DNA of 64,000 nucleotides from Loripinus fragilis (Eukaryota > Mollusca > Bivalvia > Lucinida > Lucinidae), in NCBI GenBank assembly GCA_964019695.1, contig OZ026522.1, positions 62,271,811 through 62,335,810 of the forward strand, given 5' to 3'. Position numbers and translations under genes: made by a program. The notes under the pieces are model-generated. The model was not told the DNA's origin, searched no databases, and saw nothing but the letters and a program-made list of their open reading frames with translations. How positions within the stretch are numbered: position 1 is the stretch's first letter; every line of letters begins with the position of its first letter. This document shows positions 1 to 42,020 of the stretch, piece by piece.

Positions 1-556
1 CATAGTAAAGGAACTACGGGTAAAAACATTTTTTAATTCAATCAAGGGCAGATAACTCACAAACGAGAAAGGTAAGAGTGACAGTTCTTAGTCACAATAT
101 GTTACCTTTGATGTGAAACATATCTGTGAAGTAATATTCAGATATTCCATATAGTAAAGGAACAATAGGTCAAAAACCTTTTTTCAGACCTATCAAGGGC
201 GGATAACTCACAAACTGGGAAGGTCAGAGTGACGGTCCTTAGTCACAATATGTAACCTTTGATGTGCAACATATCTGTGAAGTTTCATTCAGATATCATG
301 AGCAGTAAAGGAATAACAGGCCAGAAACCATTTTTCCAATACGAAAAAGGGCAGTAACTCCGTTAAAAATGGACAGATTTTGCCCATTAACAATCCCATA
401 CCACTCATCGCTGATAACAATATGTATGCAAAATTTGAAAAAATTCCGTGAATACATACTCAAGTTATCGATCGGAAATGGTGAGCACGGATGGACGGAC
501 GGACAGACACCGAAAGGTATAACATAATACCCCGCCACACCTTAGTGGCGGGGTAT
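1..556 (+). mobile_element. pearl/CvA-like element, right part, with terminal hairpin
   Basis: Units of about 150 bp recur near 1, 149 and 303; each begins around 'tagtaaagga' and contains 'gataactcacaaac' and 'cacaatatgt'. They are followed by a short GGAC-type microsatellite near 490-508 and a perfect hairpin at 527-556 (arms 'ataccccgccac' and 'gtggcggggtat'). Tandem core repeats, an ACGG-type microsatellite and a 3' hairpin are the hallmarks of bivalve pearl/CvA elements, which have been interpreted as non-autonomous Helitron/Helentron relatives. The left end lies outside the window. It sits in intron 3 of ARL15. Confidence 0.6.
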
Positions 557-1280
557 AAAAATGAAATCACTAAAGGACGGGTGGTAAACAGTGGAACAAG
601 CTCCAAAAGGAGGTATCAGTATTTTATTCCAACGGCACAACCCCACTCAAAAGGACAAAAAGGTATAAACAAAGGTAGGTCTCAGAGGCTTTTATGAAAA
701 AAAATTCAAAGTATTAAGCAACAGATGGTTGATTATCAGGATGATATTCCAGGAAGAAATAGTTTCTCTGTTTGTGTGAACCGAAAATTCGGTTGAAATC
801 TAAATAGTTTCCACATGAATCTCATAGCCGAGTCATACACAATGTTGTTTTTTCCAGCTTTTTGTCACCTAGAGACCAAAAAGAATGGCCAAAAATGACA
901 CCTCTAGTCATATTTTTCCTTCCCATGTAAGCAACAAAACCTGTCCCTTTATGCCAAATGTATTTTCCCATACATATCAATTGGATGAGTCCATTTCCAA
1001 TTTCAGGGTTGTTGGGTGGTATTTTGCATTTTTATTCAAATTTTAAAAGACACTTTGTAAGCAAACAGTGGAGAACCTGATCAGATGCTGTGTTTTGTGG
1101 CAAGCAAACAGTAAAGAACCTGATCAGATGCCGTGTTTTGCGGCGTCTGATCTGGTTTTGCACTGTTTGCCGATGCCTCACAAAAAGGTCGCTAGGCTTA
1201 TATGGGTTAAGAAAACCTAAAATGAAGTCAAAGAGATGGGAGTCAGACCAGAGATTTGTTCCCACTAAAAGTACTCAGAA
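557..1280. other. intron sequence, no gene
   Basis: No coding signal. Between about 1058 and 1175 a 'gcaaacagt..gaacctgatcagat' motif occurs twice directly and once inverted ('gatctggttttgcactgt'), a small fold-back repeat of a type also seen at 18480-19270. No ARL15 exon 4 (expected to encode the conserved ADNIRKYW-like stretch) was found here or anywhere left of 8682. Confidence 0.5.
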
Positions 1281-3450
1281 ATCCTTACCTCCAAGTTCTT
1301 TCACATCCACAAAACAATCTTTAAACATAAGTTATCCTTACCTCCAAGTTCTTTCACATCCACAAAACAGTCTTTAAACATAAGTTATCCTTACCTCCAA
1401 GTTCTTTCACATCCACAAAACAATCTTTAAACATAAGTCATCCTTACCTCCAAGCTCTTTCACATCCATAAAACAATCTTTAAACATAAGTTATCTTTAC
1501 CTCCAAGTTCTTTCACATCCATAAAACAATCTTTAAACATAAGTTATCCTTACCTCCAAGCTCTTTCACATCCACAAAACAATCTTTAAACATAAGTTAT
1601 CCTTACCTCCAAGTTCTTTCACATCCACAAAACAGTCTTTAAACATAAGTTATCCTTACCTACAAGTTCTTTCACATCCACAAAACAATCTTTAAACATA
1701 AGTTATCCTTACCTCCAAGTTCTTTAACATCCACAAAACAATCTTTAAACATAAGTTATCTTTACCTCCAAGTTCTTTCACATCCACAAAACAGTCTTTA
1801 AACATAAGTTATCCTTACCTCCAAGTTCTTTCACATCCATAAAACAATCTTTAAACATAAGTTATCTTTACCTCCAAGTTCTTTCACATCCATAAAACAA
1901 TCTTAAAACATAAGTTATCCTTACCTCCAAGTTCTTTCACATCCACAAAACAGTCTTTAAACATAAGTTATCTTTACCTACAAGTTCTTTCACATCCATA
2001 AAACAATCTTTAAACATAAGTTATCCTTACCTCCAAGTTCTTTCACATCCATAAAACAATCTTTAAACATAAGTTATCTTTACCTCCAAGTTCTTTCACA
2101 TCCATAAAACAATCTTAAAACATAAGTTATCCTTACCTCCAAGTTCTTTCACATCCATAAAACAATCTTTAAACATAAGTTATCTTTACCTCCAAGTTCT
2201 TTCACATCCATAAAACAATCTTTAAACATAAGTTATCCTTACCTCCAAGTTCTTTCACATCCACAAAACAAACTTTAAACATAAGTTATCCTTACCTCCA
2301 AGTTCTTTCACATCCACAAAACAGTCTTTAAACATAAGTTATCTTTACCTCCAAGTTCTTTCACATCCATAAAACAATCTTTAAACATAAGTTATCCTTA
2401 CCTCCAAGTTATTTCACATCCACAAAACAAACTTTAAACATAAGTTATCCTTACCTCCAAGCTCTTTCACATCCACAAAACAGTCTTTAAGCATAAGTTA
2501 TCCTTACCTCCAAGCTCTTTCACATCCACAAAACAGTCTTTAAACATAAGTTATCTTTACCTCCAAGCTCTTTCACATCCACAAAACAGTCTTTAAACAT
2601 AAGTTATCCTTACCTCCAAGTTCTTTCACATCCACAAAACAAACTTTAAACATAAGTTATCTTTACCTCCAAGTTCTTTCACATCCATAAAACAATCTTT
2701 AAACATAAGTTATCCTTACCTCCAAGTTCTTTCACATCCACAAAACAGTCTTTAAACATAAGTTATCCTTACCTCCAAGTTCTTTCACATCCACAAAACA
2801 GTCTTTAAACATAAGTTATCCTTACCTCCAAGCTCTTTCACATCCACAAAACAGTCTTTAAACATAAGTTATCCTTACCTCCAAGTTCTTTCACATCCAT
2901 AAAACAATCTTGAAACATAAGTTATCCTTACCTCCAAGTTCTTTCACATCCACAAAACAGTCTTTAAACATAAGTTATCCTTACCTCCAAGTTCTTTCAC
3001 ATCCACAAAACAGTCTTTAAACATAAGTTATCCTTACCTCCAAGTTCTTTCACATCCACAAAACAGTCTTTAAACATAAGTTATCCTTACCTCCAAGTTC
3101 TTTCACATCCACAAAACAATCTTTAAACATAAGTTATCTTTACCTCCAAGTTCTTTCACATCCACAAAACAGTCTTTAAACATAAGTTATCCTTACCTCC
3201 AAGTTCTTTCACATCCACAAAACAGTCTTTAAACATAAGTTATCCTTACCTCCAAGTTCTTTCACATCCACAAAACAGTCTTTAAACATAAGTTATCCTT
3301 ACCTCCAAGTTCTTTCACATCCACAAAACAGTCTTTAAACATAAGTTATCTTTACCTCCAAGCTCTTTCACATCCATAAAACAGTCTTTAAACATAAGTT
3401 ATCTTTACCTTCAAGTTCTTTCACATCCACAAAACAAACTTTAAACATAA
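1281..3450 (-). repeat. 53-bp satellite block A, derived from ARL15 exon 3/intron 3 boundary
   Basis: About 41 head-to-tail units of 53 bp. Read on the minus strand each unit is 43 nt of ARL15 exon 3 (encoding FKDCFVDVKELGG) followed by the first 10 nt of intron 3, GTAAGGATAA or GTAAAGATAA. Common variants on the plus strand are 'acaatct', 'acagtct' and 'acaaact', 'cacaaaa' versus 'cataaaa', 'ttatcctt' versus 'ttatcttt', and 'caagttc' versus 'caagctc'. Almost all copies keep the GAG|GTAAGG or GAG|GTAAAG splice donor. There are no unique spacers, so this is not a CRISPR-type array. Confidence 0.95.
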
Positions 3451-3856
3451 AAGTAAGTAATGGTGCAAAGATCAGGAATCGATACAATCAAGTACCACAC
3501 CTGACCAAGGATACCAATGGGAAAGTGACAAACTCACAGAAGACACCACAAACGAGAGCCAAGAGGTCAGCCCTTTCCCAGCAGGTGACCAAAAAGCACA
3601 TATAAACAGACGCGCACAAAACATAGCAAACACAAGACAGAACAAAAACATTAAAGATCCACAAAAGAAGTACCGCCTTGGAACGGTCAGTAAAATATTT
3701 TACTGGAGGGCTTAAACCGGTTTAACGGCGCCAACCTCACCCTTAATTTAGATGTGGATCAAGACACATAGATATTTGGTTTGCATGAAAGACCCCTAAC
3801 TGATCAATGCATCATCTCCTAAAACATATAAATCAAGATATAACAAGGAGATAAAG
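3451..3856 (+). repeat. dispersed repeat 'I', copy 1, inserted in the satellite
   Basis: About 405 bp of unrelated sequence interrupts the array, starting 'aagtaagtaatggtgcaaag' and ending near 'gagataaag'. It is nearly identical to 5521-5926 and clearly related to 40436-40905, and it appears inverted near 44735-44900. No ORF. The family is not identified; it could be a SINE or MITE fragment. The array resumes at 'caaaacagtc', so the exact right boundary is uncertain by about 4 bp. Confidence 0.8.
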
Positions 3857-5520
3857 CAAAACAGTCTTTAAACATAAGTTATCTTTACCTCCAAGTTCTT
3901 TCACATCCATAAAACAATCTTTAAACATAAGTTATCTTTACCTCCAAGCTCTTTCACATCCATAAAACAATCTTTAAACATAAGTTATCTTTACCTCCAA
4001 GTTCTTTCACATCCATAAAACAATCTTTAAACATAAGTTATCTTTACCTCCAAGTTCTTTCACATCCACAAAACAATCTTTAAACATAAGTTATCCTTAC
4101 CTACAAGTTCTTTCACATCCACAAAACAATCTTTAAACATAAGTTATCCTTACCTCCAAGTTCTTTCACATCCATAAAACAATCTTTAAACATAAGTTAT
4201 CTTTACCTCCAAGCTCTTTCACATCCATAAAACAGTCTTTAAACATAAGTTATCTTTACCTCCAAGTTCTTTCACATCCATAAAACAAACTTTAAACATA
4301 AGTTACCTTTACCTCCAAGTTCTTTCACATCCACAAAACAAACTTTAAACATAAGTTATCTTTACCTCCAAGTTCTTTCACATCCACAAAACAAACTTTA
4401 AACATAAGTTATCTTTACCTCCAAGCTCTTTCACATCCATAAAACAGTCTTTAAACATAAGTTATCTTTACCTCCAAGTTCTTTCACATCCACAAAACAA
4501 ACTTTAAACATAAGTTATCTTTACCTCCAAGTTCTTTCACATCCACAAAACAATCTTTAAACATAAGTTATCTTTACCTCCAAGTTCTTTCACATCCATA
4601 AAACAAACTTTAAACATAAGTTATCTTTACCTCCAAGTTCTTTCACATCCACAAAACAATCTTTAAACATAAGTTATCTTTACCTCCAAGTTCTTTCACA
4701 TCCACAAAACAAACTTTAAACATAAGTTATCTTTACCTCCAAGCTCTTTCACATCCATAAAACAGTCTTTAAACATAAGTTATCTTTACCTCCAAGTTCT
4801 TTCACATCCACAAAACAAACTTTAAACATAAGTTATCCTTACCTCCAAGTTCTTTCACATCCATAAAACAATCTTTAAACATAAGTTATCTTTACCTCCA
4901 AGTTCTTTCACATCCACAAAACAAACTTTAAACATAAGTTATCCTTACCTCCAAGTTCTTTCACATCCACAAAACAAACTTTAAACATAAGTTATCTTTA
5001 CCTCCAAGCTCTTTCACATCCACAAAACAGTCTTTAAACATAAGTTATCCTTACCTACAAGTTCTTTCACATCCATAAAACAATCTTTAAACATAAGTTA
5101 TCCTTACCTCCAAGTTCTTTCACATCCACAAAACAGTCTTTAAACATAAGTTATCCTTACCTCCAAGTTCTTTCACATCCACAAAACAATCTTTAAACAT
5201 AAGTTATCTTTACCTCCAAGTTCTTTCACATCCACAAAACAGTCTTTAAACATAAGTTATCCTTACCTCCAAGTTCTTTCCCATCCACAAAACAGTCTTT
5301 AAACATAAGTTATCCTTACCCCCAAGTTCTTTCACATCCACAAAACAGTCTTTAAACATAAGTTATCCTTACCTCCAAGTTCTTTCACATCCACAAAACA
5401 GTCTTTAAACATAAGTTATCTTTACCTCCAAGCTCTTTCACATCCATAAAACAGTCTTTAAACATAAGTTATCTTTACCTTCAAGTTCTTTCACATCCAC
5501 AAAACAAACTTTAAACATAA
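3857..5520 (-). repeat. 53-bp satellite block B
   Basis: About 31 further units. The variant mix is as in block A, with many 'acaaact' and 'acagtct' forms. The last units before 5521 match the last units before 3451, including a rare 'ttaccttcaag' variant, showing that block plus repeat I was amplified together with a period of 2070 bp. Confidence 0.95.
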
Positions 5521-5926
5521 AAGTAAGTAATGGTGCAAAGATCAGGAATCAATACAATCAAGTACCACACCTGACCAAGGATACCAATGGGAAAGTGACA
5601 AACTCACAGAAGACACCACAAACGAGAGCCAAGAGGTCAGCCCTTTCCCAGCAGGTGACCAAAAAGCACATATAAACAGACGCGCACAAAACATAGCAAA
5701 CACAAGACAGAACAAAAACATTAAAGATCCACAAAAGAAGTACCGCCTTGGAACGGTCAGTAAAATATTTTACTGGAGGGCTTAAACCGGTTTAACGGCG
5801 CCAACCTCACCCTTAATTTAGATGTGGATCAAGACACATAGATATTTGGTTTGCATGAAAGACCCCTAACTTATCAATGCATCATCTCCTAAAACATATA
5901 AATCAAGATATAACAAGGAGATAAAG
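5521..5926 (+). repeat. dispersed repeat 'I', copy 2, inside the satellite
   Basis: Nearly identical to 3451-3856 (differences include 'aatcaatac' for 'aatcgatac' and 'cttatcaatg' for 'ctgatcaatg') and placed at the same point of the 53-bp unit. Best explained as duplication with the array rather than an independent insertion. Confidence 0.85.
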
Positions 5927-6045
5927 CAAAACAGTCTTTAAACATAAGTTATCTTTACCTCCAAGTTCTTTCACATCCATAAAACAATCTTTAAACATAA
6001 GTTATCTTTACCTCCAAGCTCTTTCACATCCATAAAACAATCTTT
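5927..6045 (-). repeat. 53-bp satellite block C
   Basis: Just over two units between repeat I copy 2 and the pearl-like element. It ends after 'aatcttt', exactly where block D resumes with 'aaacataag', so no array base is lost or duplicated at the insertion. Confidence 0.9.
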
Positions 6046-7071
6046 AACTAGAACACATTCGATGGCGCGCCATCGCAAATCCCCACGCTCTCGAAGAAAT
6101 CTAATGGTAATTGACCCTTTGACCTCATCCCAAGGTCATCAGTTTGATCTTAGGTTAAAATTTTTCAGTGTATCCTGGTTTACTGCAAATTCCCTTTAAT
6201 TTGATATGCCACATGACCATGTTCAGAAAATTAAATTTTTGACCCCTCCCCAAGGCCCCAGGGGCTGGGGACCCAAAAAATTGTGCCGCTGCATGTGCAA
6301 TTCATGTAAGTAACTAACACACCAAATCTGGTTGAATTTCGGAAAAAAAAATTTTTTGGCCCCCGAACCCCCATGGTACCCCCAAGTCCCACCCCTGGGC
6401 ATGACCCAGGTGCCCGAATGAAAATCCCCTCTGATATGTTATATATCTTTCATATGTGAGAAGATACGAAAAGTTTGGTTTAAAAATCTTTGAAATTGAC
6501 TTTGTAATTCAGATTTAATGATATTTGACCTTTTGGCCCCTCCCCAGGGCCCCAGGGGGCGGGGACCCAAAAAAACGGTGCCGTTGAATATGCCATTCAT
6601 GTAAGCAACTCACACACCAAATCTGGTTGATTTTCGGAAAAAAAAATTTTTTGACACCACAACCCCCCACGGTACCCCCAAGTCCCACCCCTGGGGCATG
6701 ACCCAGGCGGCCAAATGAAAATCCCGTCTGATATGTTTTATATCTTTCATTTGTGAGAAGACACACAAAGTATGGTTTAAAAATTTTTGATTTTGACTTA
6801 GTAATTGAAATTTAATGATATTTAATGATATTTGACCTTTTGGCCCCTCCCCAGGGCCCCAGGGGGCGGGGCCAAAAAAAAATGTGCCGTTGCACACCCC
6901 ATTCATGTGAGCAACACACACACCAAATTTGGTTGGATTTCGTCCAATGGTTTAGGAGGAGATAGCGTGACGGACGGACGGACGGACGGACGGACGGACA
7001 GACGGACGGATGGACGGACGGACGGAGGCGATTGCAATATCCCCAACGCTTTTTTAAAAAAGCGTGGGGAT
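6046..7071 (+). mobile_element. pearl-like element P1 inserted in the satellite, no TSD
   Basis: 1026 bp. Starts 'aactagaacacattcgatgg', has imperfect core repeats of about 300 bp (each with 'cccaagtcccacccc' and 'cattcatgt'), a (GACG)n microsatellite at about 6968-7025 and a terminal hairpin at about 7041-7071 around 'cgcttttttaaaaaagcg'. The flanks 'cttt' and 'aaacataag' join into a perfect 53-bp unit with no duplication, as expected for Helitron-type insertion between T and A. Short ORFs rich in PSVRPSV come only from the microsatellite. Confidence 0.7.
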
Positions 7072-7442
7072 AAACATAAGTTATCTTTACCTCCAAGTTC
7101 TTTCACATCCATAAAACAATCTTTAAACATAAGTTATCTTTACCTCCAAGTTCTTTCACATCCACAAAACAATCTTTAAACATAAGTTATCCTTACCTAC
7201 AAGTTCTTTCACATCCACAAAACAATCTTTAAACATAAGTTATCCTTACCTCCAAGTTCTTTCACATCCATAAAACAATCTTTAAACATAAGTTATCTTT
7301 ACCTCCAAGTTCTTTCACATCCACAAAACAATCTTTAAACATAAGTTATCCTTACCTACAAGTTCTTTCACATCCATAAAACAATCTTTAAACATAAGTT
7401 ATCCTTACCTCCAAGTTCTTTCACATCCACAAAACAATCTTT
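7072..7442 (-). repeat. 53-bp satellite block D
   Basis: Seven units. All carry the 'acaatct' form, i.e. GATTGT as in the real exon. Some have 'cttacctacaag', which would turn the exon's LGG into LVG. Confidence 0.95.
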
Positions 7443-8450
7443 AACTAGAACACATTCGATGGCGCGCCATCGCAAATCCCCACGCTCTCGAAGAAATCTA
7501 ATGGTAATTGAAGGTCACCAGTTTGATCGCAGGTAAAAAAATTTCAGTGTATCCTGGTATACTGCTCAGCCCCGTTAATTTGATATGCCACATGTACATG
7601 TTCAGAAAATTAAATTTTTGACCCCTCCTCAAGGCCCCAGGGGGCCGGGACCCAAAAAATTGTGCCGGTGCATGTGCCATTCATGTGAGTAACTCAAACA
7701 CAAAATCTGGTTGAATTTCGGAAAACAAATTTTTTTGACCCCCCAGCCCCCCACGGTACGCCCAAGTCCCACCCCTGGGCATGACCCAGGCGGCCAAATG
7801 AAAATCCCATCTGATATGTTTTATATCTTTCATTTGTGAGAAGATATACAAAGTTTGGTTTAAAAATCATTGAAATTGACTTTGTAATTCAGATTTAATG
7901 ATATTTGACCTTTTGGCCCCTCCCCAAGGCCCAAGGGCGCGAGGACCAAAAAAATGGCGCCGGTGCGTGTGCCATTCATGTAAGAAACTCACACACCAAA
8001 TCTGGTTGAATTTCGGGAAAAATTTTTTTTGACCGCCCCAACCCCCCACGGTACCCCCAAGTCCGACCCCTAGGGCATGACCCAGGCTGCCAAATGAAAA
8101 TCCCGTCTGATATGTTTTATATCTTTCATGTGGGAGAAGACACACAAAGTTTGGTCAAAAAATCTTTCAAATTGACTTTGTAATTGAAATTTAATGACAT
8201 TTAATGATATTTGACCTTTTGGCCCCTCCCCAGGGCCCCAGGGGGCGGGGCCAAAAAAAAATGTGCCGTTGCACGCCCCATTCATGTGAGCAACCCACAC
8301 ACCAAATTTGGTTGAATTTCGTCCAATGGTTTAGAAGGAGATAGCGTGACGGACGGACGGACGGACGGACGGACAGACGGACGGACGGACGGACGGACGG
8401 ACGGAGGCGATTGCAATATCCCCATCGCTTTTTTAAAAAAGCGTGGGGAT
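7443..8450 (+). mobile_element. pearl-like element P2 in the satellite
   Basis: 1008 bp, the sister of 6046-7071: same start, same core repeats, a (GACG)n microsatellite at about 8348-8404 and the same terminal hairpin ending 'gcgtggggat'. It sits at the identical position in the 53-bp unit. Internal indels and substitutions relative to P1 (for example a shortened start near 7505) show the two copies have diverged since duplication. Confidence 0.7.
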
Positions 8451-8724
8451 AAACATAAGTTATCCTTACCTACAAGTTCTTTAACATCCACAAAACAATC
8501 TTTAAACATAAGTTATCCTTACCTCCAAGTTCTTTAACATCCACAAAACAATCTTTAAACATAAGTTATCCTTACCTCCAAGTTCTTTCACATCCACAAA
8601 ACAATCTTTAAACATAAGTTATCCTTACCTCCAAGTTCTTTAACATCCACAAAACAATCTTTAAACATAAGTTATCCTTACCTCCAAGTTCTTTCACATC
8701 CACAAAACAATCTTTAAACATAAG
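8451..8724 (-). repeat. 53-bp satellite block E, ends in the genuine ARL15 exon 3
   Basis: About five units, the last of which (8724-8682 on the minus strand) is the functional exon itself. Units here are closest to the exon sequence ('acaatct' and 'ttatcctt' throughout; a few 'ctttaacatcc'). Confidence 0.95.
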
Positions 8725-8741
8725 AGCTTTGATACTGAACC
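8682..8741 (-). CDS. ARL15: ARL15, coding exon 3 (partial gene)
   Basis: Sixty coding bases between a good acceptor (TTATTCTGTTTCAG on the minus strand) and a consensus donor GAG|GTAAGG at 8681-8676. It enters in phase 1 from exon 2 (G+GG making Gly) and leaves in phase 1. It encodes GFSIKALMFKDCFVDVKELGG across the junction, matching the switch region of ARL15: the ARL15-specific GFSIKA and VKELGG replace the PT.GF and WD.GG motifs of ordinary ARF proteins. ARL15 is a membrane-associated ARF-like GTPase reported to bind CNNM magnesium transporters. The last 43 nt plus 10 intron nt were amplified into the adjacent satellite. Downstream exons are beyond the left edge. Confidence 0.93.
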
Positions 8742-8846
8742 CTGAAACAGAATAAGACGGTGGAATACTATTTGCATAGGTTTAGATAAACAAAATTTTA
8801 AGGGTAAAATTGTGAATATCTTCTAATTTATCTGTTAAAAGAAGTT

Positions 8847-8897
8847 TTGGGTGTTTCAAAAGAACCGTCTCATTGCGACAGTTCTTTTGAGTACCCA
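8847..8897. repeat. dispersed hairpin motif, copy 1
   Basis: Imperfect inverted repeat: 'tttcaaaagaaccgtctc' paired with 'cagttcttttgagtaccca'. Same motif as at 19612-19640 (half), 23329-23380, 24101-24150, 24505-24556, 55991-56041 and 59880-59920. Lies in ARL15 intron 2. Confidence 0.7.
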
Positions 8898-8940
8898 GAA
8901 GATATTGTGCCAAAAAAAGGCATTTTAGGATGATGACATC

Positions 8941-9420
8941 TAATCAATTCAGCTAACAATATATCTATGCACGTTTGGTTAAAATTCAATCACTGGTTCG
9001 GAAGATAGTGTGTGGAAATGGCTGACTTATAAGTCTTATAGGATGGTGACCTTGAAAATTAAGCCAAGGTCACTAAAATCTAATCAACTCTTCCAACAAT
9101 GTATCAATGCAAGTTTGATCAAAATCCATCCACTGGTTCAGAAGATAATGCACAGAAACCCTATTTTGGCATTTCAATGTGCTGGTGTGATCTTGAAAAT
9201 AAGGTCGAGGTCACCAAAATCTAATCAACTCTTTGAGCCCTCCCAACAATGTATCTATGCAAGTTTGGTTAAAATCCATCCACTGGTTCAGAAGATAATG
9301 CACAAAAACAAAGCTACATGGACGTCGATGCCGACGGGATCTGTACCATTCGTGATCCCTTCTGTGGGGGGATATGACTTTGCTGTCTGCTGCGATGGGG
9401 ATTGGTGCTTTAAGGGTTAA
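8941..9420. repeat. tandem repeat, about three units of ~145 bp
   Basis: Three imperfect units share 'aatccatccactggttcaga', 'agataatg' and 'aaggtca..aaaatctaatcaa'. They resemble core repeats of pearl-like elements but no terminal hairpin or microsatellite is visible, so this is probably a remnant. The 136-codon ORF at 9010-9420 is a product of the repeat. Confidence 0.6.
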
Positions 9421-9462
9421 GTCAGGATGGTACATTGTATACAGAGGTCCAGATAACATTTA

Positions 9463-9652
9463 CAGTAAAACCTGTGTAAAACGGCCACTCAAAAAAAGAC
9501 AAAACAAAGATCTTAATGACAAATGGTACATTTGTAGCTTAATGAAGGTTGAAAGTATTCTGCAATACTTTTGACCTGCATTAAGCGATAAATGGTCTTG
9601 GAAACCAATTTTCAGTCTTTTTGAGAGTGGCCGTTTTACACAGGTTTCACTG
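9463..9652. mobile_element. mariner-type MITE, TA target site
   Basis: 190 bp with terminal inverted repeats starting 'cagtaaaacctgtgtaaaac' and flanked by TA on both sides (9461-9462, 9653-9654). The interior pairs 'agtattctgcaatactt'. Further copies at 10297-10503 and 59543-59733. TIR plus TA duplication points to Tc1/mariner cross-mobilisation. Confidence 0.85.
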
Positions 9653-9654
9653 TA

Positions 9655-10296
9655 CACATGTATGTCCAATTGGGTATTTATTTTACCTAACCAGATTTTA
9701 CCAGTTGCTTTTTTCAAACATCAATTAAATAATTAATGATTTTTTTTCATCCCAAATATATTCTTGAAATTGCTACTTTAGCAAGTGATCTTAGAAATAC
9801 ACAGTCTGAAGAGATTTTTTGGAAAGAGGCCTTTGAGAATCTTCCTGAATATTTAACAATCATATCTGTTTCTCTGAAAAAAACATAATTCTAGTGCAAT
9901 TTGCATCGAATTTACTGTGCTACACACTGGAACATATTCATATTTTATAGCTTTCTTTTTCTTTTACTTTTTCCATTAAATCATTTGCTTTTTCATTCCC
10001 CATAATTTTGAAAACGTTTTTTTTCTAATATTTAATTGCTTAAATACCCCTAAAAGCAGCTTATCTGTTCCTCTGGAAAGATTGAGGGGTTATAAGTTAG
10101 AATTTCTAAAAATATTGTATTTCTTTCTGAAGATCAATTTTGTCGGAGTAAACAGTGCAGACCATGATGACTAAAAGCCTTAACACTTTCTATCCGTTCC
10201 TCACACCCTTGGTTCTTGTATAATTGAATACATGAATTGATGAATATTGAAGTAGTCAAAGGACCAATGCGAGAAATATTTTCAATTACGACAATA
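9655..10296. other. ARL15 intron 2, nothing recognised
   Basis: AT-rich sequence with no ORF, repeat structure or exon-like segment that I can support. Confidence 0.5.
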
Positions 10297-10503
10297 CAGA
10301 AAAACTTGTCTTAAGCAGCCACTCAAAAAGAACACCAAAAATTGGTTTTCAATACCAATTATCACTTAATGCAGGTCAAAATTATTGCAGAATGCTCCAA
10401 GGGGACCATTCTGCAATACTTCTGACCTTCATTAAGCTATCATTTGTCATTAAGACCTTTGTTTTGTCTATTTTTAAGTGGCCGCTTAAGACAGGTTTTA
10501 CAG
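10297..10503. mobile_element. mariner-type MITE, older copy
   Basis: 207 bp; ends 'cagaaaaacttgtc' and 'gacaggttttacag' match the TIR of 9463-9652. The left flank is TA and the right flank has decayed to CA. It ends 53 bp from the exon 2 donor. Confidence 0.8.
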
Positions 10504-10556
10504 CAATCAGTTTGAGATCACAGAATCTGATAGGTTAAAGCTTAAAAGATACACAC

Positions 10557-10701
10557 CCACAGTTGGAGCTATTTCATCTGTACTTTCTCCACTTAGTATG
10601 GCCAGAAGAGTACTTTTCCCAGATCCCTTTAGGCCTAAACACAGAACCATAAAGCTGGGTCTTGCAGGAGGTGGTCCTCTGCCACAAAGCCTTCTGAAAA
10701 A
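10557..10701 (-). CDS. ARL15: ARL15, coding exon 2 with the P-loop
   Basis: 145 coding bases, phase 0 in and phase 1 out, between acceptor TTTCCTCAG and donor GTGG|GTGTGT. The translation begins FFRRLCGRGPPPARP and continues through VLCLGLKGSGKSTLL to STDEIAPTVG. GPPPARP and the Walker A loop GLKGSGKS are diagnostic of ARL15 (human: KGPPPARP and GLTGSGKT). A second AG eight bases downstream (TTTTTCAG|AAGG) is a possible alternative acceptor, but using it would shift the frame; the first joins exon 1 in frame and gives the family-like CFRALC/FFRRLC spacing. No N-terminal glycine for myristoylation precedes it, as in human ARL15. Confidence 0.95.
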
Positions 10702-10868
10702 CTGAGGAAAAGTATGTATAAATGAACCAAAGCAGAAATTATTTTATATTCAATTCAAATATCAAATTCCTTAAATACATAACATTCACTTCCAGTTTTG
10801 TTTGTAGAGTAATGTTAGTGTTACCAGTATTTTTCCACAGCCAATTAGTGACACAAAACAATGGTATA

Positions 10869-12411
10869 CCATAAAATCTCTATTAGAGGCCCATGCTCTA
10901 ATAGAGGTCCATTCCCCAGTTTGGACGCCAAAAATGCTGATTTTTCAAGCATATTTCAAAAAAAAATCGAGCTTCGAATAAAGGCCCACCTATGAATATT
11001 GAAACAAGAGGGCCCATGCGCCCTGGATCGCTCACCTGAGTTCTGGCACATACGATGTATTGACCTGTGGCTAAAGAGATATCATTAAAAGATATTTCTA
11101 TTTTTAGCTCTGGTGGCCATTTTGTTCAAATGAGCTAAACATTCTGATCAATTTTTGGTATGATGTAGAAGGCATCATGCGGAACATTTCCGTGAAGCAA
11201 TTTTGAATTTGAAATAGAGGTTCAAGAGGAAATGCTGTTTAAAGACATTTCTTATCTAGAGCTCTGGTGGCATCTTTGTTCAGCGGAGTGGAACCATTTG
11301 TGCTATTTTGGTAGAATGCATCATGATAAATACTTTTGACCAGTCGTTCAGGAGGAACTGCTGTTTAAAGATATTTCTTATCTAGAGCTCTGGCAGCCAT
11401 TTTGTTCAGTGGAGCGGAACTATTAGTGTAAATATAGTAGAGATATTATGAGGAACAATTCTGTGAAGTTATTTTAAATTTAGACCAGTGGTTAAGGAGG
11501 AAATGACTTTTAAAGATATTTCTTATCTAGAGCTCTGTCAGCCCTTTTATTCAGCTGAGCGAAACCATTTGTGCAATTTTGGAAAGCGGTGTTAAGAGGA
11601 ACAATTCTGTGAAATTATTTTGAATTTAGACCAGTGGTTAAGGAAGAAATGACGTTTAAAGATATTTCTCATCTAGAGCTCTGGCAGCCCTTTTGTTCTA
11701 CCGAGCGGAACCATTTGTGCATTTTTGGTAGAGGGTGTTATGAGGAACAATTCTGTGAAATTATTTTGAGTTTGGGCAAGTGGTTCAGGAGATGTCGTTT
11801 AAAAGATTTTTTTATTTGGGCTCTAGCAGCCCTCTTATTTGGTGGAGCGGAACCATTTGTGGAATTTGAAAGAGGGCATCATGGGGAATATTCATGTGAA
11901 GTTATATGAAATTTGGACCAGTGGTTCAAGAAAAAGTTACTGGAAGATGGACAGATGATGGACAGAGACAGATCTTAATAGCTCACCTAGAGCCTTCGGT
12001 TCAGGTGAGCTAAAAAAATCGGTCCTACATTATGCAGAAACATCTCAAATTTGTTATCAGCAGCGAATTACTAGTCGTCCGCCTCCAACAAATTGTCCCT
12101 CTAAATAAGGTTCATTGTTTTTGACCCTCCTTTCATTTTGTAAAAATATACTGACTCTTGCTAGCAAGTTGTGAACCCCGTACTGCATATAAAACGTTTT
12201 ATCGATACCTAGCGCAAAGAACGCTTATCATGTAATAGTCTTCTACCTATGGACTTCCCGACACTAGCATTTCAAGATGACGACCCTTATCGATAAATTG
12301 GAGCAACAGACTGATTTAACGCACTTGTCTCCTCTAATAGAGGCCCACCCCCATCTCTATGAATGGTAATGATTCTTATAGACGCCCGGACCTGCAATAG
12401 AGATTTTACAG
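10869..12411. mobile_element. mariner-like TIR element, interrupted
   Basis: Ends 'ccataaaatctctattagag' at left and (inverted) 'cagtaaaatctctattg' at right, with TA flanking both. Subterminal 'ctaatagaggcc' repeats face each other at 10911 and 12330. It carries no transposase, so it is non-autonomous. The element at 11003-12012 is inserted inside it. Confidence 0.75.
11003..12012 (+). mobile_element. pearl-like element with 145-bp core repeats
   Basis: Starts 'aacaagagggcccatgcgcc'; five to six core units of 127-146 bp (marker 'cttatctagagctctg' at 11251, 11378, 11522 and about 11668); a degenerate GATGGACAGA microsatellite near 11947-11970; and a terminal hairpin at 11980-12012 ('agctcacct' with 'aggtgagct'). 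The 91-codon ORF at 11634-11909 is repeat-derived. Inverted core sequence recurs at about 57330-57470. Confidence 0.7.
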
Positions 12412-15530: not shown

Positions 15531-16809
15531 GCTGAGAACTACCGGGGCGTACCGGCCCATTTCGCTCACCAGTGTTTGCTGCAAAATCATGGAGCATGTG
15601 ATTGCCAGCCAGATCATGAACCAAGGGAAGAAGAATAACATCTTATACCCACTACAGCATGGCTTCAGAAGGGGCAGATCCTGTGAGACGCAGCTGATAG
15701 AGTTCATTGAGGACCTCTCAAACAACCTACACAACAATCAACAAACAGATATCCTCATCATGGATTTTACCAAAGCTTTTGACAAGGTTTGTTACATCCT
15801 CCTGACACATAAACTCAACCATTACTGAATACAAGGAAACGTCAATATATGGATCAAGAATTGGCTAGCCAACTGTAAACAGTCTGTTGTAGTCGAGGGA
15901 GAACAATCACAGTTTGTAAGTGTGGAATCGTGAGTCCCTCAAGGACCATGCCTCTTCCTCTATTACATCAATGATCTGCCAGCGAAACTCCATTCATCTG
16001 TACTACTTTTCGCTGATGACACCATTGTCTACCTAGTGATAAGGAGCCATGAGGATGCTGATCTCCTGCAAGAAGACCTTGTCACACTGGCAGCATGGGA
16101 TGAACAATGGAGGATGAAATTTCACCCAAGCAAATGCAATAACATGACAGTGACCAGCAAGAGAGATCCCAATATAACAGACTATGACTTGCATGGCCAC
16201 ATCTTAGCCAATGTACCATCGACCAAGTATATAGGTGTCACAGTGACACAGGATCTCAAGTGGGATACCCATATTCAAAATATATGTGAAAGCAAACCAG
16301 ACTATAGGCTCCTGCGAAGGAATCTGAACATAGGCGCTGTCACCATCAAGCAGCAGGCCTACTTCAGTCTTGTCCGCCCCCTGGTAGAGTATTCCAGCAC
16401 TATGTGGGACCCTTACACTCAGAAAAACATTAAGAAAATAGAGATGGTCCAACATAGGGTGGCTAGATATGTACTCCATAGGCACCACAACACTTCCAGC
16501 GTCACAGACATGTTTAAGACCCTAAACTAGTGAAGCCTTGAGAACAGGAGGAAGGACATGCCCCTTTGCATGATGTTCAAAATTGACAGAGGACTGGTAG
16601 CCATCAGCAAACACTCAAGATTGGCACCACAGAAGAGACCGACAAGGCACAGCCACTCACAAGCTTTTCAAACAACCACCTGTGGAACAGAGAAAAGGAT
16701 GTCTTTCTTCCCAAGGACTGTGAGTGACTGGAATACACTTCCTCCTTACATCCCAGACTTGGACACACTGGAAGCCTTAAAGGCCTCAGTGTCTGGACTG
16801 ACCTACTAG
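15531..16809 (+). pseudogene. non-LTR reverse transcriptase remnant (jockey/CR1-like)
   Basis: Decayed C-terminal two thirds of an RT. Readable stretches include NYRG, HGFRRGRSCETQL, the catalytic block LIMDFTKAFD, the VPQG region, LFADDTIVY with the active-site DD near 16008-16030, then FHPSKCN and LVRPLVEY. It is interrupted by a stop at about 15827, a stop and short deletion at about 15930-15960, and a stop at about 16528. It ends at 16809, only 77 bp from the ARL15 exon 1 donor and antisense to that gene. Same family as 47179-48678. Confidence 0.85.
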
Positions 16810-17836: not shown

Positions 17837-18479
17837 GCACTGTCTCCGAGTCCGGTACCGGACCCCTAGACTACGGGGCTACGGGTCCGGTACCGGACCC
17901 CTAGACACTGATTCTAGGGGTCCGGTACCGGACCCCGAGCCACGCCTATGAGGACTGTCTCGGGGTCCGGTAGTTTATGAAACGACTACTGACAAGTCTA
18001 GGGATACGGGTCCGTACCTGCACGTATATGTAGTTACAGTTATTTTACCAACAAAAACTCATGTTGAAGTTTCACTTTGCTTCGTCCGCCATCTTTGATC
18101 CTCAAAGGGAAACCAATCTGCATTTACTGTCATGCACAATTAAGCTTATACAAAGGTATTTAAAAAAACGGTAAAGTAAAAAAAGAACATAACTCACCTG
18201 TAACAAATCAATTATCTTCTCATCTTCAATTAAAGGAACCAATTAAACTACTCGTTGGCAGTTGATTAGTGAGATGAGTGAGCAGTGACAAATAAGCTCA
18301 CATAGTCTGTAGTATAGATTCATTATTCAACTATAGCTTTCAAAGAGACTCACTACTGGGACAACGGCAGTGGATCTTACTTGTATCTTTTGACATTCGG
18401 ACATAGCTTTATAAGAAGACTCTGAGTCTTTTTTTTGTCTTTTTAAACAACTGATATGGACCCAAAAGGAAATGACTTT

Positions 18480-21117: not shown

Positions 21118-21460
21118 GGCAGTGGCTAGAGGTACGGATTCGTACCCCTAGCCTGGGAGGCTAGGGATACGGATCCGTACCCCTAGCCTAGGAGGCTAGG
21201 GGTACGGACCCGTACCCCTAGTGTATTCTACCATGTCAGGCTACAGATACAGACATAAAACCCGGATGAGAAGTTATCATGATGATAAGTGTTAGAAAAT
21301 ACCTTGTTGTTGTGTTATGAAATACCAATCCAGTAGGCAGTAATCCAGTAAGTCGCCATTTGCAATGTGGGGTAACTCTGTACAGTAAATATAAAAACGA
21401 AACACGAATTCGGCATTGGGACAAGTGGCGCGGGATTTATGTTGTGTTGTGTTATTGTTG

Positions 21461-22161: not shown

Positions 22162-22488
22162 GGCAGTGGCTAGAGGTACGGATCCGTACCCCTAGCCTGG
22201 GAGGCTAGGGATACGGATCCGTACCCCTAGTCTCGGAGGCTAGGGGTACGGACCCTTACCCCTTGTATATTCTACCATGTCAGGCTACAGGTACAGACAT
22301 ATAACCCTGATAAGAAATTCTAAATTATCATGATGATAAGTGTTAGAAAGTACCTTGTTGTTGTGTTATGAAATAGCAATCCAGTAAGTCGCCATTTGCA
22401 ATGTGGGATAACTCTGTATAGTAAATATAAAAACGAAACATGAATTCGGAATTTGAACAAGTGGTGCGGGATTTATGTTGTGTTGTTG

Positions 22489-22535
<47 letters not shown>

Positions 22536-24084
22536 ATTATTATTATTATTATTATTAAATCAAATTAAACTTGTTATTAATGATTTGTTTTTGCTGTTTT
22601 CACTTTCGGTTTATTCATTAGCGAGGGTGCGAACAACATTCTGTGATCAATTGGTCGACATGACGCACTACAAAGGCGTCTTTAAACTTAAAAAGAACAA
22701 ATTACAATGATTGGCTGAATATTTTAATGTCCAACCTCACAGACATCAGAAGAACGTCCTTAATTAGCCTAATCCGTACAAATAGTATCTAGACCTATAA
22801 TTATACATATAATAATAACTATTTGATGTAACTGCTCATTTATAAAACTGCCAAGAAAATTATGTTCAGTCTCACTTTGTCAAAATGGCTAAAACGCTGA
22901 ACATAGGGAAAAAGTTTGAGGACTTTTCCTCTTTAGAAATTGCCATCCAGCAGTATCAGAAGGAAGAAAATGTTCAATTCTTTAGGCGCCAAAAACTTAC
23001 ATTAAAATGATAGAAAATACAACTTTACACACCGCCAGTCCGTCTGTCCGTTCGTCAGTCAGTACAATTTTATTACTTGTTTTCGTGCTTAGAAGTAACA
23101 TAAGTACCTTAAGGATCTAAAAAATATTAAGTTTGCCCATAAATCTAAAGGTCCTAACAAATAAACTTAGCAAGCACACAATGTCGGACCAATATCGTTC
23201 CGCTAGCAAAACGCCATTCAAATGGTATTTCGCTGGCGGGCCGACCCCTGCCCGCCTTTTTATGTTTAGTTTTGATGTTAGTTTTGATATAATGCGTAAA
23301 TCAACTATTATATTTTCAGATATACATTTTTGGTGCGCAAAAGTGTCTTCACGATGAAACGGTTCTTTTGAGCACCAAAAACTTACGTTAAACGTGATAG
23401 AAAATACAATTTTACACACCACCCGTCCATATGTCCGTTCGTCAGTCCGTACAATTTTATTATTTTTTTTCGTGCTTAGAAGTAACATAAGTACCTTAAG
23501 GATCAAAAAAAATATTAAGTTTATCCATACGTCTAAAGGTCCTAACAAATAAACCCAGCCAGCACACTTACTTAGTTAAGTACAGGTGAACTTATTTGAC
23601 ACTGCTCACTCATCTCACTCATCAGCTGCCAACGAGTGGTTAATTGGTTACTTTAATTGAAGATGAGAAGATAATTGCTGGTGAGAAGATAATTGATTTG
23701 TTACAGGTGATTAATTTCCTCTAATATATATAGAAGTATGTTCTTTTTTTTTAACTTTACCGTTATTTTTTAACCCTTTTGTATAAGCTTGTACTTGTTT
23801 GAATTATATATGACATGACGTCAAAGTAAATAGAATAGCTTCCCTTTATCGATCAAAGCTGGCGGACAAAACAAATGTAAATCTTCAACACGAATTTTTG
23901 TTTAATTAAGCTATATTAATCATGATAGCTTCTCATCAGGGTTATATGTCTGTACCTGTAGCCTGACATGGTAGAATATACTAGGAGTACGGATCCGTAC
24001 CTCTAGCCTCCCAGGCTAGGGGTACGGATCCGTATCCCTAGCCTCCCAGGCTAGGGGTACGGATCCGTACCTCTAGCCACTGCC
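22162..24084. mobile_element. inner 9-bp-TSD TIR element of the same family
   Basis: 1923 bp with the same 'ggcagtggctagaggtacgg' ends as 21118-25033. It is flanked by a perfect 9-bp duplication 'tttcagata' (22153-22161 and 24085-24093). It is therefore a later insertion of the family into one of its own copies. The right arm lacks the microsatellite and instead has a segment with 'gatcaaagctggcggac' resembling 17837-20412. Confidence 0.85.
23329..23380. repeat. dispersed hairpin motif, copy
   Basis: 'tggtgcgcaaaagtgtcttc' pairs with 'gaaacggttcttttgagcac'. It follows 'tattttcagatatacattt', the sequence context that also precedes the copy at 24101. Confidence 0.7.
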
Positions 24085-24724: not shown

Positions 24725-25033
24725 TAAATCCCGCACCACTTGTCCCAATTCCGAATTCGTGTTTCGTTTTTTTATATTTACTATACAGAGTTATCCCGCA
24801 TTGCAAATGGCGACTTGCTGGATTTGTAATTCATAACACAACAACAAGGTATTTTCGAACACTTATAATCATGATAACTTCTCATCAGGGTTATGTGTCT
24901 GTACCTGTAGCCTGACATGGTAGAATATACTAGGGGTACGGATCCGTACCTCTAGCCTCCCAGGCTAGGGATACGGATCCGTATCCCTAGCCTCCCAGGC
25001 TAGGAGTACGGATCCGTACCTCTAGCCACTGCC

Positions 25034-25290: not shown

Positions 25291-27186
25291 TTAATGAGCA
25301 AGCTTGTTTAATCTCGCTAAATGCAGCCTGTGGCATAGATTACTTGAGATTCTTTGTAATTTCAGGAAGTTTTCACTCTCCCTTAACTCTGAGATAACCG
25401 AACAGTCAGAAATGAGCTGAGCTAACTGCGTTCTACTTGTGTATCTTTTATTCCACTGGTTGATTCCAACAATATCAATTGTCATGGACTTAAATTCCGG
25501 GTAAAATGCTTTTCTCTGGTTTATCAATGCAGGACATTCAAGCAACATATGTGGCAAATCTTCATTATCAAGACCACAACACTTGCAAATTGGACTAACT
25601 GATGATCTACTGAATTTACTCTTTGAAGTCTGCAACATATATGTCCCTGTGATCATTCTGCATTTTGTTATACCTTTTCTAACATCTGACTCGGTTGAAT
25701 CCAGGGAAGACCACAGTGAATGGGTTTGGCCAATTTTCAAGAGTTCAGTATTTAAATAACACAATGTTGATTTCTCTGAAGCCTCTGCCTTTAATTTATC
25801 CGTCCAATATTTGTTTACAGTTTGTTTAACTAGGAGTTTCCATTGCTCTTTTGTAGGGATTACCTCCTGTAGATTTTCAAGACCAGGTAGTTGATATTCG
25901 ATTAAGATTTTCTGCACTCTACTGTAGAAACTCAGTGTATTGTCAAGATTTACTGCTATCTGGCGCTTATTAAGGTGCACTAGCGTCTCATTTGTTGACA
26001 CCCATAGATTGCGAAGAAGGCTTAACTGTCGTTTATGAAGCTCCGCCTCGATTGGGAGAGCACCAAGCAATAAGTACACAGCACACGTAGCAGTTCTGGT
26101 TGGTAGCGATTGGAAAAGTTTAAGGTTTTGTATATGAAACTTTGATAATATCTGTAGTTGAGTGTTCGTGATGGGTAACGCTTCGAGACCAAATAAAAGT
26201 CTTGGTAGAACGTAGCACTGGTAAATCTTGTATGACACCTTCGGATTTAATCCATTTGAGACGTGAACCCCAGTGTTAATAAGAGCGTAAAGAGTGCGTC
26301 GGCCTAATTTGAGGCGATCCTCTATATTTATACAGTTTTCGTTTGTTTTGGTGCGAAGGATCCCTAACTGCATGGTATTTGTTGACAGTGATACAGATTT
26401 TCCATTAAGTTCATGAGCAAATGTTTTCTTAGATATAGATTTATGTCCATTCAGCAGCACAATATTAGACTTATCGGGATGAATGGTTACTTGGTCCTTT
26501 TTGGCATGTCTTTTCACAACATTCGTCATTATCTGGAGCTCATTTTCACAAGTTGATAAAAGAGCCACATCGTCAGCACATGTTGTACAACCACAGTAAA
26601 TTCCCCCTATCGATAGGCCTAATCCATGTTGCATGAGTTCTTTAAGACAGGGGTTGTTGTAGGTCTTGTATAGGAATGTTGATAGAATTCCACCTTGTCT
26701 TACACCTTGCAAGATATTAAAATGTTCACTTAATTTACCCATCCATTTAACTTTAGATGTTAGTGCTGTATATAGATCTTTCACAATAGACAATAAAGAT
26801 GGTTGGACTCCGCATTCATATAACTTATCGAGCATGATGATATGATTTACCACGTCGAAGGCCTTACGGCTGTCTAGTGTTACTAGGAATAATGGTTCAA
26901 AAGTGTTCATTTTTACCTCTGCACAGGCTTCCGAGACAATCAGCGCAGACATTATTGGGGAAAGTCCTTTCGTAAAGCCAAATTGAAGTGACGATTGATC
27001 AAACGATTCTGTCAATCTTGGCAACAGCACACTTTCGAACAGCTTTCTCATAAATGGGATCACAGTGATCCCTCGGTAGTTATCCAAAATACTTGGGTCT
27101 TTTGCCTTCTTCAGCACAGGTGTTAGGATTCCACTTTTAAATGCCTCTGGGACCGTTCTAGATTCCAATATTTGGTTGAAAACCAT
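25291..27186 (-). pseudogene. non-LTR retrotransposon ORF2: reverse transcriptase and zinc-binding C-terminus
   Basis: A 631-codon uninterrupted frame. RT blocks in order: SGILTPVLKK, NYRGITVIP (about residue 37), FGFTKG, TLDSRKAFD (about 103), GVRQGG, then CADDVALL with the catalytic DD (about 213) and HPDKSN. The C-terminus has a CKCC..H..EC zinc cluster (zf-RVT type, about residue 543-560). The N-terminal endonuclease and the start of RT are missing: the frame begins near 27200, directly after an unrelated ORF1 fragment, which implies an internal deletion. It lies antisense to and shares RT sequence with 31190-32652, so both belong to one family. CADD in place of the usual F/YADD is notable. 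Confidence 0.85.
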
Positions 27187-31189: not shown

Positions 31190-32652
31190 TAGTTAATGGT
31201 ACGGTATGTGACATACCGGAAGCGGTATGCTCAGGGTGGGCAACTCACTTTGGGAATCTGGCTGAACCTCTACAGTGTGAACAGTTTGATCAGCAGAACT
31301 GTGATGTAGTGCATAAGGATATTTTAGCAATAAATAAAAATGTTAGGGAGCAAATACTTCCATCAAAGTTAATCACAATGAAGGAACTTCATAATGCCTT
31401 GAAAAAATTAAAGAACAACAAAGCAGCCGATGTGTTGAAATTGACAAGTGAACACTTTAAACTAAGCATAGGAGTGTTAGATAAATTTTTATTAGATCTA
31501 CTGAACTACATGGTCAGACAGAGTCATATCTCTCCCATTTTAAAGGAAGGTATACTTTCTCCAATCTTCAAAAAAGGGGATAAATCCAATCCTTCTAACT
31601 ACAGAGGAATAACAGTTACCCCTGTCATCTTAAAAATTTTAGAGCATGTATTGAATGAAAGACATAATCAGATACTATTGGATTCTCAATCCTGATTACA
31701 AAAAGGATTTACTGCTGGTAGCTCTTCACTGGGAGCAGCGCTGATCTTGACTGAATACATAAATGAGGCAAAACAAAAGAGAACCATTGTTTTTGGCTAC
31801 ACTTGATGTGCAAAATGCCTTCGATGTTGTCAACCATGATCTGCTGTTGAGAAAATTGTACCTGGATGGGATCACTGGGAATGATTGGCTACTGGTGCAA
31901 GATATATACAGCGATATGACCACCTCAGTGAAGTGGGAGAGTCATTTGTCAGCGCCATTTGTCATACATCAAGGTGTTCGTCAGGGAGGAGTACTGTCGA
32001 TGTCGCATTATAAAAGATACAATAACCCGCATCTGATAGTTCTAGAAGACAGGTATACTGGAATGGTTATCGGCAGTATTTGTGTCCCTCACATAACGGT
32101 TGCAGATGACACAGCTTTGATTACAAACTCTGAAGATGAGATGCAGGGTATGGTTGAGGACACCGGGGAGTCAGCTAACCAGGAACAGTATGTTATCTAT
32201 CCAACCAAAAGTGGAGTGCTGTTGTACAGTAATGGGGTCAAGTCAACGTGTGATCAACTTGGTTTTGATATGGGTGGAAAAAGAATCAAATTTGAGAGTC
32301 AGTGTAACCATCTGGGCATATTCAGAGACATAAAACAAAAAGTTAATATTGAGGAGAAGATAAGCCTGGGAAGAAAGACTGCGTACACATTGATGGGCGC
32401 GGGCCTGCATTCAGGAAATGGGCTGACGAAACCTTTATGTGCTTACTTATGGTCTACATACGTGATCCCGAGGGTGGTATATGGTCTTAAGGTGCAGAAA
32501 CTGTCAAGGACTGACATGGAGAGTTTGGAGAAATTCCAGAGAAAATGTTTGCGGCTAATCCAAGGGCTTTTTGATAAAACTCCAAATTGTGTTACTCTTT
32601 CCCTATTGGGTATTCCACCAGTCGAGTTAATAATACATAAAAAACATTCTTA
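31190..32652 (+). pseudogene. non-LTR ORF2: reverse transcriptase domain
   Basis: Reads through VVNGTVCDIPEAV, KKLKNNKAADVL, GILSPIFKKGDK, NYRGITVTP, then a stop at 31693; resumes with GFTAGSSS and TLDVQNAFDVVNHD, QGVRQGG, TVADDTALI (catalytic DD near 32104) and a terminal stop at 32651. It is closely similar to the minus-strand RT 25291-27186 (GITV, AFDVVNH, HQGVRQGG). At least three breaks. Confidence 0.85.
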
Positions 32653-32654
32653 AC

Positions 32655-39974: not shown

Positions 39975-40434
39975 AGCCCCTGTTTGAAGTGTACTAAGTC
40001 ATGGGCCTCAGCTATAGTAGCTGGTAAAGCCATTTATGCCGGGATTGTCCTTGGAAAGAAGCTGTATTTATATGTATTTGATTCGGCCGGATACTGCCGG
40101 AGCTTCTTGGAGCGTAGTGCTCTAGGCCATGTGCTGGCAGGGGACAGAGATTCTTCTGCTGGGATGTCGACTATGTCATTTACGATCTTGAAGAGCATGG
40201 TAAGTTGTATCTTCGTTCGCCTAGACTTTAATGTTTCCCATTGAAGATCTCCTAGCATTTCTGTCAAACTGCTGGTATTGTGATACCTGTTTGTACAGTA
40301 CTTGGCAGCCCTCCTTTGCACCATTTCCAGCTTGTGTTATGATCGTTCTGTGTGTGGGCTCCATATAGAGGCACAATATTCTAATATGGACCCAACAACT
40401 GCCGAGTAGTCTGCATGCCTAGTTTTAAGTAAGT
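39975..40434 (-). pseudogene. RT C-terminal fragment (jockey/CR1-like)
   Basis: On the minus strand: EYCASIWSPH-like start, then MVQRRAAKYCTNRYHNTSS, LQWETLKSRRTKIQLTMLFK and a final SFFPRTIPA. Strongly similar to residues about 378-480 of the RT at 47179-48678, so the same family. Only the 3' end of the element is left. Confidence 0.85.
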
Positions 40435-40435
40435 A

Positions 40436-40905
40436 CGGTTGCAAAGATCAGGAATAAATACTATCAAGTACCACACCTGACCCAGGATACCAACGGAGAA
40501 GTGACAAACTCACAGTTAGACACCACAAACGAGAGCCAAGAGGTCAGCCCTTTCCCAACAGGTGACCACAAAGCATATATAAACAGACGCGCACAAAGAC
40601 ATAGCAAACACAAGACAGAACCAAAACATAAAAGATCCATAAAAGAAGCACCGCCTTGGAACGGTCAGTAAAATATTTACTGGAGGGCTTAAACCAGTTA
40701 AAAGGCGCCAACCTCACCCTTAATTCAGATGTGGATCAAGACACATAGATGTTTGGTTTGCATGAAATACCCCTAACTTATCAATGCATCATCTCCTAGA
40801 ACATATAAATCAAAATAAAACAAGGAGATAAAGCAAAGATAAGGACTCAACAGTAAATAAAACTGAATACCAGAGCAAAAGAAATCCAACAGGTAAACCC
40901 CGGTC
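40436..40905 (+). repeat. dispersed repeat 'I', third copy
   Basis: Begins 'aagtaagtacggttgcaaag' and follows the two satellite-embedded copies (3451, 5521) for about 400 bp with scattered differences, then continues beyond their end ('gataaggactcaacag'), showing the satellite copies are 3'-truncated or end at a breakpoint. Confidence 0.8.
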
Positions 40906-41453: not shown

Positions 41454-42020
41454 GTTGAGGAATCTAAATTCCTTGGCATTTTATTTGATAGAAAACTCAG
41501 TTTTATACCCCATATTAAATATCTCAAAGCTAAATGTTTAAAAGCATTGAATCTTTTAAAAGTGCTTTCCCATACTTCTTGGGGTGCAGACAGAACTACA
41601 CTTCTAAAGCTGTATCGGTCTCTAGTTCGGTCAAAATTAGACTATGGCTGTATTATATATGGCTCTGCACGAAAATCATATCTTCAAATGCTTGATCCTA
41701 TACATAACCAAGGACTTAGATTAGCTTTAGGGGCTTTTAGAACTTCTCCTGTTGCTAGTCTCTATGTGGAAGCAGATGAACCATCACTATATTCACGAAG
41801 AGAGAAACTCTCTTTGCAATATGCTATAAGACTTGCTGCTAACCCACCAAATCCTGCTCATGAAGTTACATTCCCACCAAATTATGTTAATTTATATGAA
41901 CAAAAACCTAAAGCTATTAAATCATTTGGCATCAGAATTTCACCACTCTTAGAATCTGCCAATATTAAACACAAAATATTGAAAAACATTTTACACCAAA
42001 TATTCCAGCTTGGTGCATGA
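41454..42020 (+). pseudogene. RT C-terminal part of the truncated retroelement
   Basis: From the truncation point the frame reads VEESKFLGILFDRKLSF, LKLYRSLVRSKLDYG and LDPIHNQGLRLALGAFRTSP, the thumb/connection part of an I/Jockey-type RT, to a stop at 42020. The catalytic DD lay upstream and is lost. A one-base frameshift around 41960-41995 separates it from the RNase H frame, whose upstream codons read TPNIPAWCMKPP. Confidence 0.9.

Follow-up and report, generated by a model that had tools for sequence, protein, structure and literature searches.

An intronic minisatellite in a bivalve ARL15 gene, apparently built from the gene's own exon-intron boundary

The repeats in the gigantic introns of Drosophila Y-linked genes are simple satellites, and they are not known to be made of splice sites. 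These introns, given as hundreds of kb to Mb in length in the accessible part of the source (PMC11207136), hold tandem repeats that need to be removed. Splice signals have been copied by tandem duplication in cases of intron gain: in potato, a duplication across a 3' splice boundary produced a new intron (PMC4974935), and in Drosophila, duplication of coding sequence with proto-splice sites has been proposed for some introns, in the portion of that report available (PMC2891723). Human UBC, as far as the available text describes it (PMC10809524), consists of tandem units with an AG/GT motif at a fixed interval; the units are 228 nt long, a multiple of three, and coding, and they undergo stochastic splicing in RNA. 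In oysters, Helentron- and Helitron-like elements lie near tandem arrays and are described as carrying them, according to the accessible sections of two reports (PMC7492417, PMC8268682). A 2025 review states that tandem repeats can come from virtually any sequence, and the sources named in its available text are transposons, rDNA spacers, micro- and minisatellites and older satellites, with no exon or splice boundary among them (PMC12692304). In the open-access literature searched, none of the titles and abstract openings listed described a repeat built from an exon-intron boundary.

The locus described here, in a 64-kb stretch of Loripinus fragilis DNA (the window), resembles these systems in part. 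Like UBC it repeats an AG/GT motif at a fixed interval, with the AGGT core kept in 85 of 86 units, but the unit is 53 nt (53 mod 3 = 2, not a multiple of three), apparently intronic, and provided with a poor acceptor tract. As in the potato and Drosophila intron gains, splice signals were copied in tandem, with a boundary crossed as in potato; here, however, it is apparently the 5' splice site that was copied, to ~86 copies beside an existing exon, and a new intron is unlikely, as the exon unit has no new acceptor with a normal tract. Unlike the repeats of the Drosophila Y introns, this repeat is the gene's own splice boundary, and unlike the oyster arrays its unit is gene sequence and the elements sit inside the array.

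Two ARL15 exons were recognised on the minus strand (Table 1). Exon 2 reads RLCGRGPPPARPSFMVLCLGLKGSGKSTLLAILSGESTDEIAPTV in frame, its last base opens a G codon that exon 3 finishes, and the two exons join in one open frame to give RLCGRGPPPARPSFMVLCLGLKGSGKSTLLAILSGESTDEIAPTVGFSIKALMFKDCFVDVKELG. The peptide used as database query was this exon 2-3 reading with one further G. Its best Protein Data Bank match was ARL15 (8f6d_B, E 7.9e-12), followed by ARL2 (6.1e-07), and it matched the Pfam family Arf at E 2e-09. The closest small GTPase match and the in-frame joining of the exons both place the gene in ARL15, as a sequence-only reading of this DNA had proposed; the exon 3 boundaries and frame proposed there are also supported, with the splicing itself predicted. 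Among the matches listed for a human ARL15 probe, neither exon 1 nor any exon from 4 on could be recognised in the window; these exons may sit outside it or be too diverged. The best among the matches listed for the human N-terminus, a gapped one at 162-115 on the minus strand (E 0.008), was rejected as exon 1 because it falls on the wrong side of exon 3. The gene is presumably whole.

Table 1. Positions in the window of the ARL15 exons, the blocks of 53-bp units and the inserts that interrupt them.
Feature	Positions	Strand	Basis or remark
ARL15 exon 2, 137 nt, acceptor TTTTTCAG, donor G/GTGTGT	10557..10693	-	frame and protein match
ARL15 exon 3, 60 nt, acceptor CTGTTTCAG, donor GAG/GTAAGG, encodes FSIKALMFKDCFVDVKELG	8682..8741	-	in frame with exon 2
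First 17 nt of exon 3	8725..8741	-	single copy in window
Exon-borne unit, 43 exon nt + 10 intron nt	8672..8724	-	53/53 identical to array consensus
First four extra units (8460-8671), donor GTAAGG in each, plus part unit	8450..8671	-	TRF and scan
Insert B copy 2	7445..8449	-	comparisons used 7446-8452
Array block, 7 units, last cut by insert B	7071..7444	-	TRF and ungapped scan
Insert B copy 1	6048..7070	-	comparisons used 6049-7073
Array block, 2 units, second cut by insert B	5949..6047	-	TRF and ungapped scan
Insert A copy 2, ~413 bp, dispersed element	5522..5934		sequence comparison
Array block, 31 units	3879..5521	-	ungapped scan
Insert A copy 1	3452..3864		411/413 identical to copy 2
Array block, 41 units; distal edge passes into unique intron (GTAAGGAT then TTCTGAGTAC)	1279..3451	-	ungapped scan

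When the unit taken from the exon was run along the sequence without gaps, and stretches matching it at 40 or more of 53 bases were counted as copies, 86 minus-strand copies appeared within 1279-8724. Together they amount to 4558 bp in a span of 7446 bp, in agreement with the ~86 copies and ~4.6 kb estimated earlier. Even with the threshold lowered to 34/53, the same kind of scan over the 64-kb window gave no plus-strand unit at all and no minus-strand unit beyond ~1200-8800. TRF reported period 53 in four blocks (1281-5520, 5928-6047, 7071-7444 and 8450-8724), the first of which, at 79.9 copies, runs over one insert; the repeat thus continues leftwards from 8724 as the sequence-only reading had described, but it is interrupted by two pairs of inserts. 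Units 6002-6054 and 7399-7451 have one end cut by an insert, units 3399-3451 and 5469-5521 adjoin one, and unit 1279-1331 forms the distal edge. The 86 units comprise 31 distinct sequences, lie on average 1.85 mismatches per 53 from the consensus (which equals the exon copy), and are invariant at 35 of 53 columns.

Minisatellites are head-to-tail arrays of units of 10-100 bp with high identity. Eighty-six units of 53 bp at this low mean divergence place the array in that class, and the earlier term satellite, which implies abundance in long arrays or at numerous loci of a genome, was too strong for a single known array of 4.6 kb, which by size is an intronic minisatellite. An exact 42-mer of the unit had no match in virus contigs or in bacterial and archaeal contigs, which is weak evidence given the nature of those collections, and Rfam gave no match at gathering scores on 1-12000.

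The two edges of the array bear on its origin. At the exon, the unit lies across the exon 3/intron boundary, so the array does abut the exon, and the 17 exon nucleotides that precede it occur once in the window. At the distal edge the sequence runs CTTGGAGGTAAGGAT then TTCTGAGTAC, and the last copy reads GTAAGGAT then TTCTGAG; the last two intron bases of the unit (AA) are unmatched there, where TT stands. A unit of 43 exon plus 10 intron nucleotides is therefore exact at the exon copy (53/53), but beyond the array only 8 of the 10 intron nucleotides find a match, which suggests an older intron source for those eight. Judged from these letters, the distal edge probably marks where intron 3 originally began. 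As the unit reads in frame as part of a conserved protein, we infer that exon 3 was the source of the array unit. The direction from exon to array that had been proposed earlier agrees with this, the exon copy being identical to the consensus and the unit being in-frame ARL15 coding sequence.

The reading that we favour, with a probability of roughly 0.85, is local birth from the exon 3/intron 3 boundary, followed by expansion into a silent intronic array. A tandem duplication of ~53 bp spanning the end of exon 3 and its 5' splice site would have placed a second copy of the exon end and its donor at the start of intron 3, and unequal exchange or slippage would then have expanded it to ~86 copies. 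Use of the first donor would remove the array with the intron. The array could persist because, with no good 3' splice site, its units are unlikely to be included as exons.

The first donor would have to be preferred over many others. The donor GT is kept in all 86 copies, which leaves 85 extra GT donors after the true one. Position +5 is G in 48 of the 86 donors, the true donor included, and A in 38. For pairing with U1, calculation gives the +5 G donors -9.7 to -10.1 kcal/mol and the +5 A donors -6.7 to -6.9; a perfect site reaches -14.0, and the exon 2 donor, at -7.8, pairs less well than the first group and slightly better than the second. By these energies, 47 of the extra sites roughly equal the true donor in calculated strength and 38 are weaker. 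Preference for the first donor would be needed because it alone, of the five donors read, gives an open exon in the right phase: among the first four extra donors, the first yields an open exon of 113 nt with a shifted frame, and the second, third and fourth each bring a stop. Any longer unbroken inclusion would presumably contain the same stop.

The acceptor side points to the same outcome. In the 17 nt before AG, pyrimidines make up 76% at the exon 3 acceptor and 82% at the exon 2 acceptor; in the exon unit, the one unit for which this was calculated, they make up 29% at GGAG and 47% at AAAG, and no new acceptor with a normal tract was found in that unit. Because these tracts are poor, we expect from the sequence that the array stays a silent intron.

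The copied 5' splice sites could nevertheless matter to the gene, through recursive, self-repairing splicing or through DCFVDVKELG-like in-frame insertions of 30 nt, a proposal that we consider unlikely. If it were true, a transcript spliced at a late donor could be spliced once more, from the first donor to the final AG that it had kept, with the same exon 3-exon 4 join. A splice from the exon donor to a unit AG would regenerate a donor (GTAAGG in 47 and GTAAAG in 38 of 85 units), so stepwise removal would leave the mRNA unchanged. The 30-nt cassette from AAAG to the donor has its AG in 86/86 units and no stop in 85/86, an openness that comes with the exon sequence and does not speak for use of the cassette. 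Both recursive splicing and 30-nt cassettes are opposed by the poor tracts, by a unit length not divisible by three and by the lack of excess motif conservation.

Another reading makes the array a working splicing device, with each AG/GT serving as donor and weak acceptor, stepwise trimming, and silent changes in copy number. The retention of AGGT, the restored donor and the abundance of AGGTAAG would suit such a device: 47 of its 48 minus-strand occurrences in the window lie in the array, and none of its 3 plus-strand occurrences does. In human UBC, tandem AGGT sites are used and one acts as a 3' site with a MaxEnt score of just -0.21, according to the accessible text (PMC10809524). We nonetheless regard a working device as quite unlikely, since the 17 nt before the unit's AG are just 29% pyrimidine, 38 of the 86 donors carry the weaker +5 A, and UBC units are a multiple of three whereas the 53-nt unit is not. 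With 35 of 53 columns invariant, the retention of AGGT is nothing special; selection on the splice motif across units was considered and rejected on the same ground. From one end of the array to the other, the donors switch between +5 G and +5 A 34 times, whereas 5000 shuffles gave 42.4 switches on average (P 0.039), a clustering that we take as local homogenisation and not as function. On the minus strand, the poly(A) hexamers AATAAA and ATTAAA are absent from the units (4558 nt) and occur 10 times in 1-8741 as a whole (mean 13.15 in 300 single-base shuffles); their absence fits with U1 binding guarding against early cleavage, but it is no test of that idea because the units share one sequence.

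Local birth from the exon boundary also has to be weighed against arrival from elsewhere, in which a pre-existing dispersed satellite, or a repeat carried by a Helitron, inserted next to ARL15, its overlap with the exon being due to chance or to gene conversion. Helitrons have a TC 5' end and a CTRR 3' end with a hairpin just upstream, and they insert between A and T without target duplication. Read by eye, both copies of insert B have such ends, TCCCC... and ...GATGGCGCGCCATCGAATGTGTTCTAG (CTAG); TTA stands on both sides of the insert, a poor fit to the A/T insertion rule, and the exact ends are uncertain. Insert B thus looks Helitron-like by its ends. Its copies, ~1.0 kb each and ~90% identical, contain internal tandem repeats of ~295 bp and a GACG microsatellite and occupy the same nucleotide position within the 53-bp unit. 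The pair may have arisen by duplication or by two separate insertions at one site, the latter considered because the copies are more diverged than the array units. Helitron-like inserts within the array, and the Helentron-carried satellite-like arrays of oyster genomes in the available text of PMC7492417, lend the landed-repeat view some colour. Against it, the B inserts lie inside the array and not around it, and no copies of the unit occur elsewhere in the 64 kb. A foreign repeat is not expected to match coding sequence and donor base for base; here 43 of the 53 unit bases encode ARL15 residues in frame, followed by that exon's own donor, which makes the landing of a genome-wide satellite very unlikely.

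Insert A is a dispersed repeat: the window has another copy at 40428-40837 (92%) and a partial, inverted one at 44729-44917 (84%). Other repeats in the window include five short arrays of 35-bp units on GGTACC- or GGATCC-centred palindromes (TRF; 17850-17943, 21124-21221, 22168-22263, 23981-24078 and 24930-25027). Retroelement remains were seen in a Pfam scan of 10 of the 22 listed ORFs, as three reverse transcriptase ORFs and one RNase H (25291-27186, minus; 31763-32653, 47179-48678 and 42017-42928, plus). A degenerate reverse-transcriptase-like reading was noted by eye at 15580-16800 (plus), within which the ORF 16036-16530 had no Pfam match at E 0.01.

The two in-array copies of insert A lie 2070 bp apart and appear to record one episode in the growth of the array. 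This pair and the copies elsewhere in the window suggest that insert A is a mobile element that inserted into the array and was later copied together with part of it. At a shift of 2070 bp, 33 pairs of units can be compared: the nine within 5098-6001 show no difference (seven pairs) or one (two pairs), and the other 24 differ by 1-5 bases, so block duplication is clear only near insert A. Part of the growth would then have proceeded in a block of ~2 kb, with the inserted element carried along. Long near-identical tandem blocks are prone to mis-assembly, and the near-exact part of the 2070-bp repeat could be an assembly duplicate, but mis-assembly of the array or its copy number as a whole is highly improbable, as the 31 distinct unit sequences and the embedded elements are unlike simple looping.

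A tandem repeat born from an exon-intron boundary, as we propose for this intron of ARL15, would make a natural experiment on how 5' splice sites are selected: the genuine donor is followed by dozens of copies, mostly every 53 nt, with nearly identical exonic and intronic surroundings, in a gene conserved to humans. RNA could reveal which donor is chosen, and whether the other sites bind U1 without splicing. On the evidence of its sequence, the gene seems obliged to pick one splice site from a row of near-identical copies.
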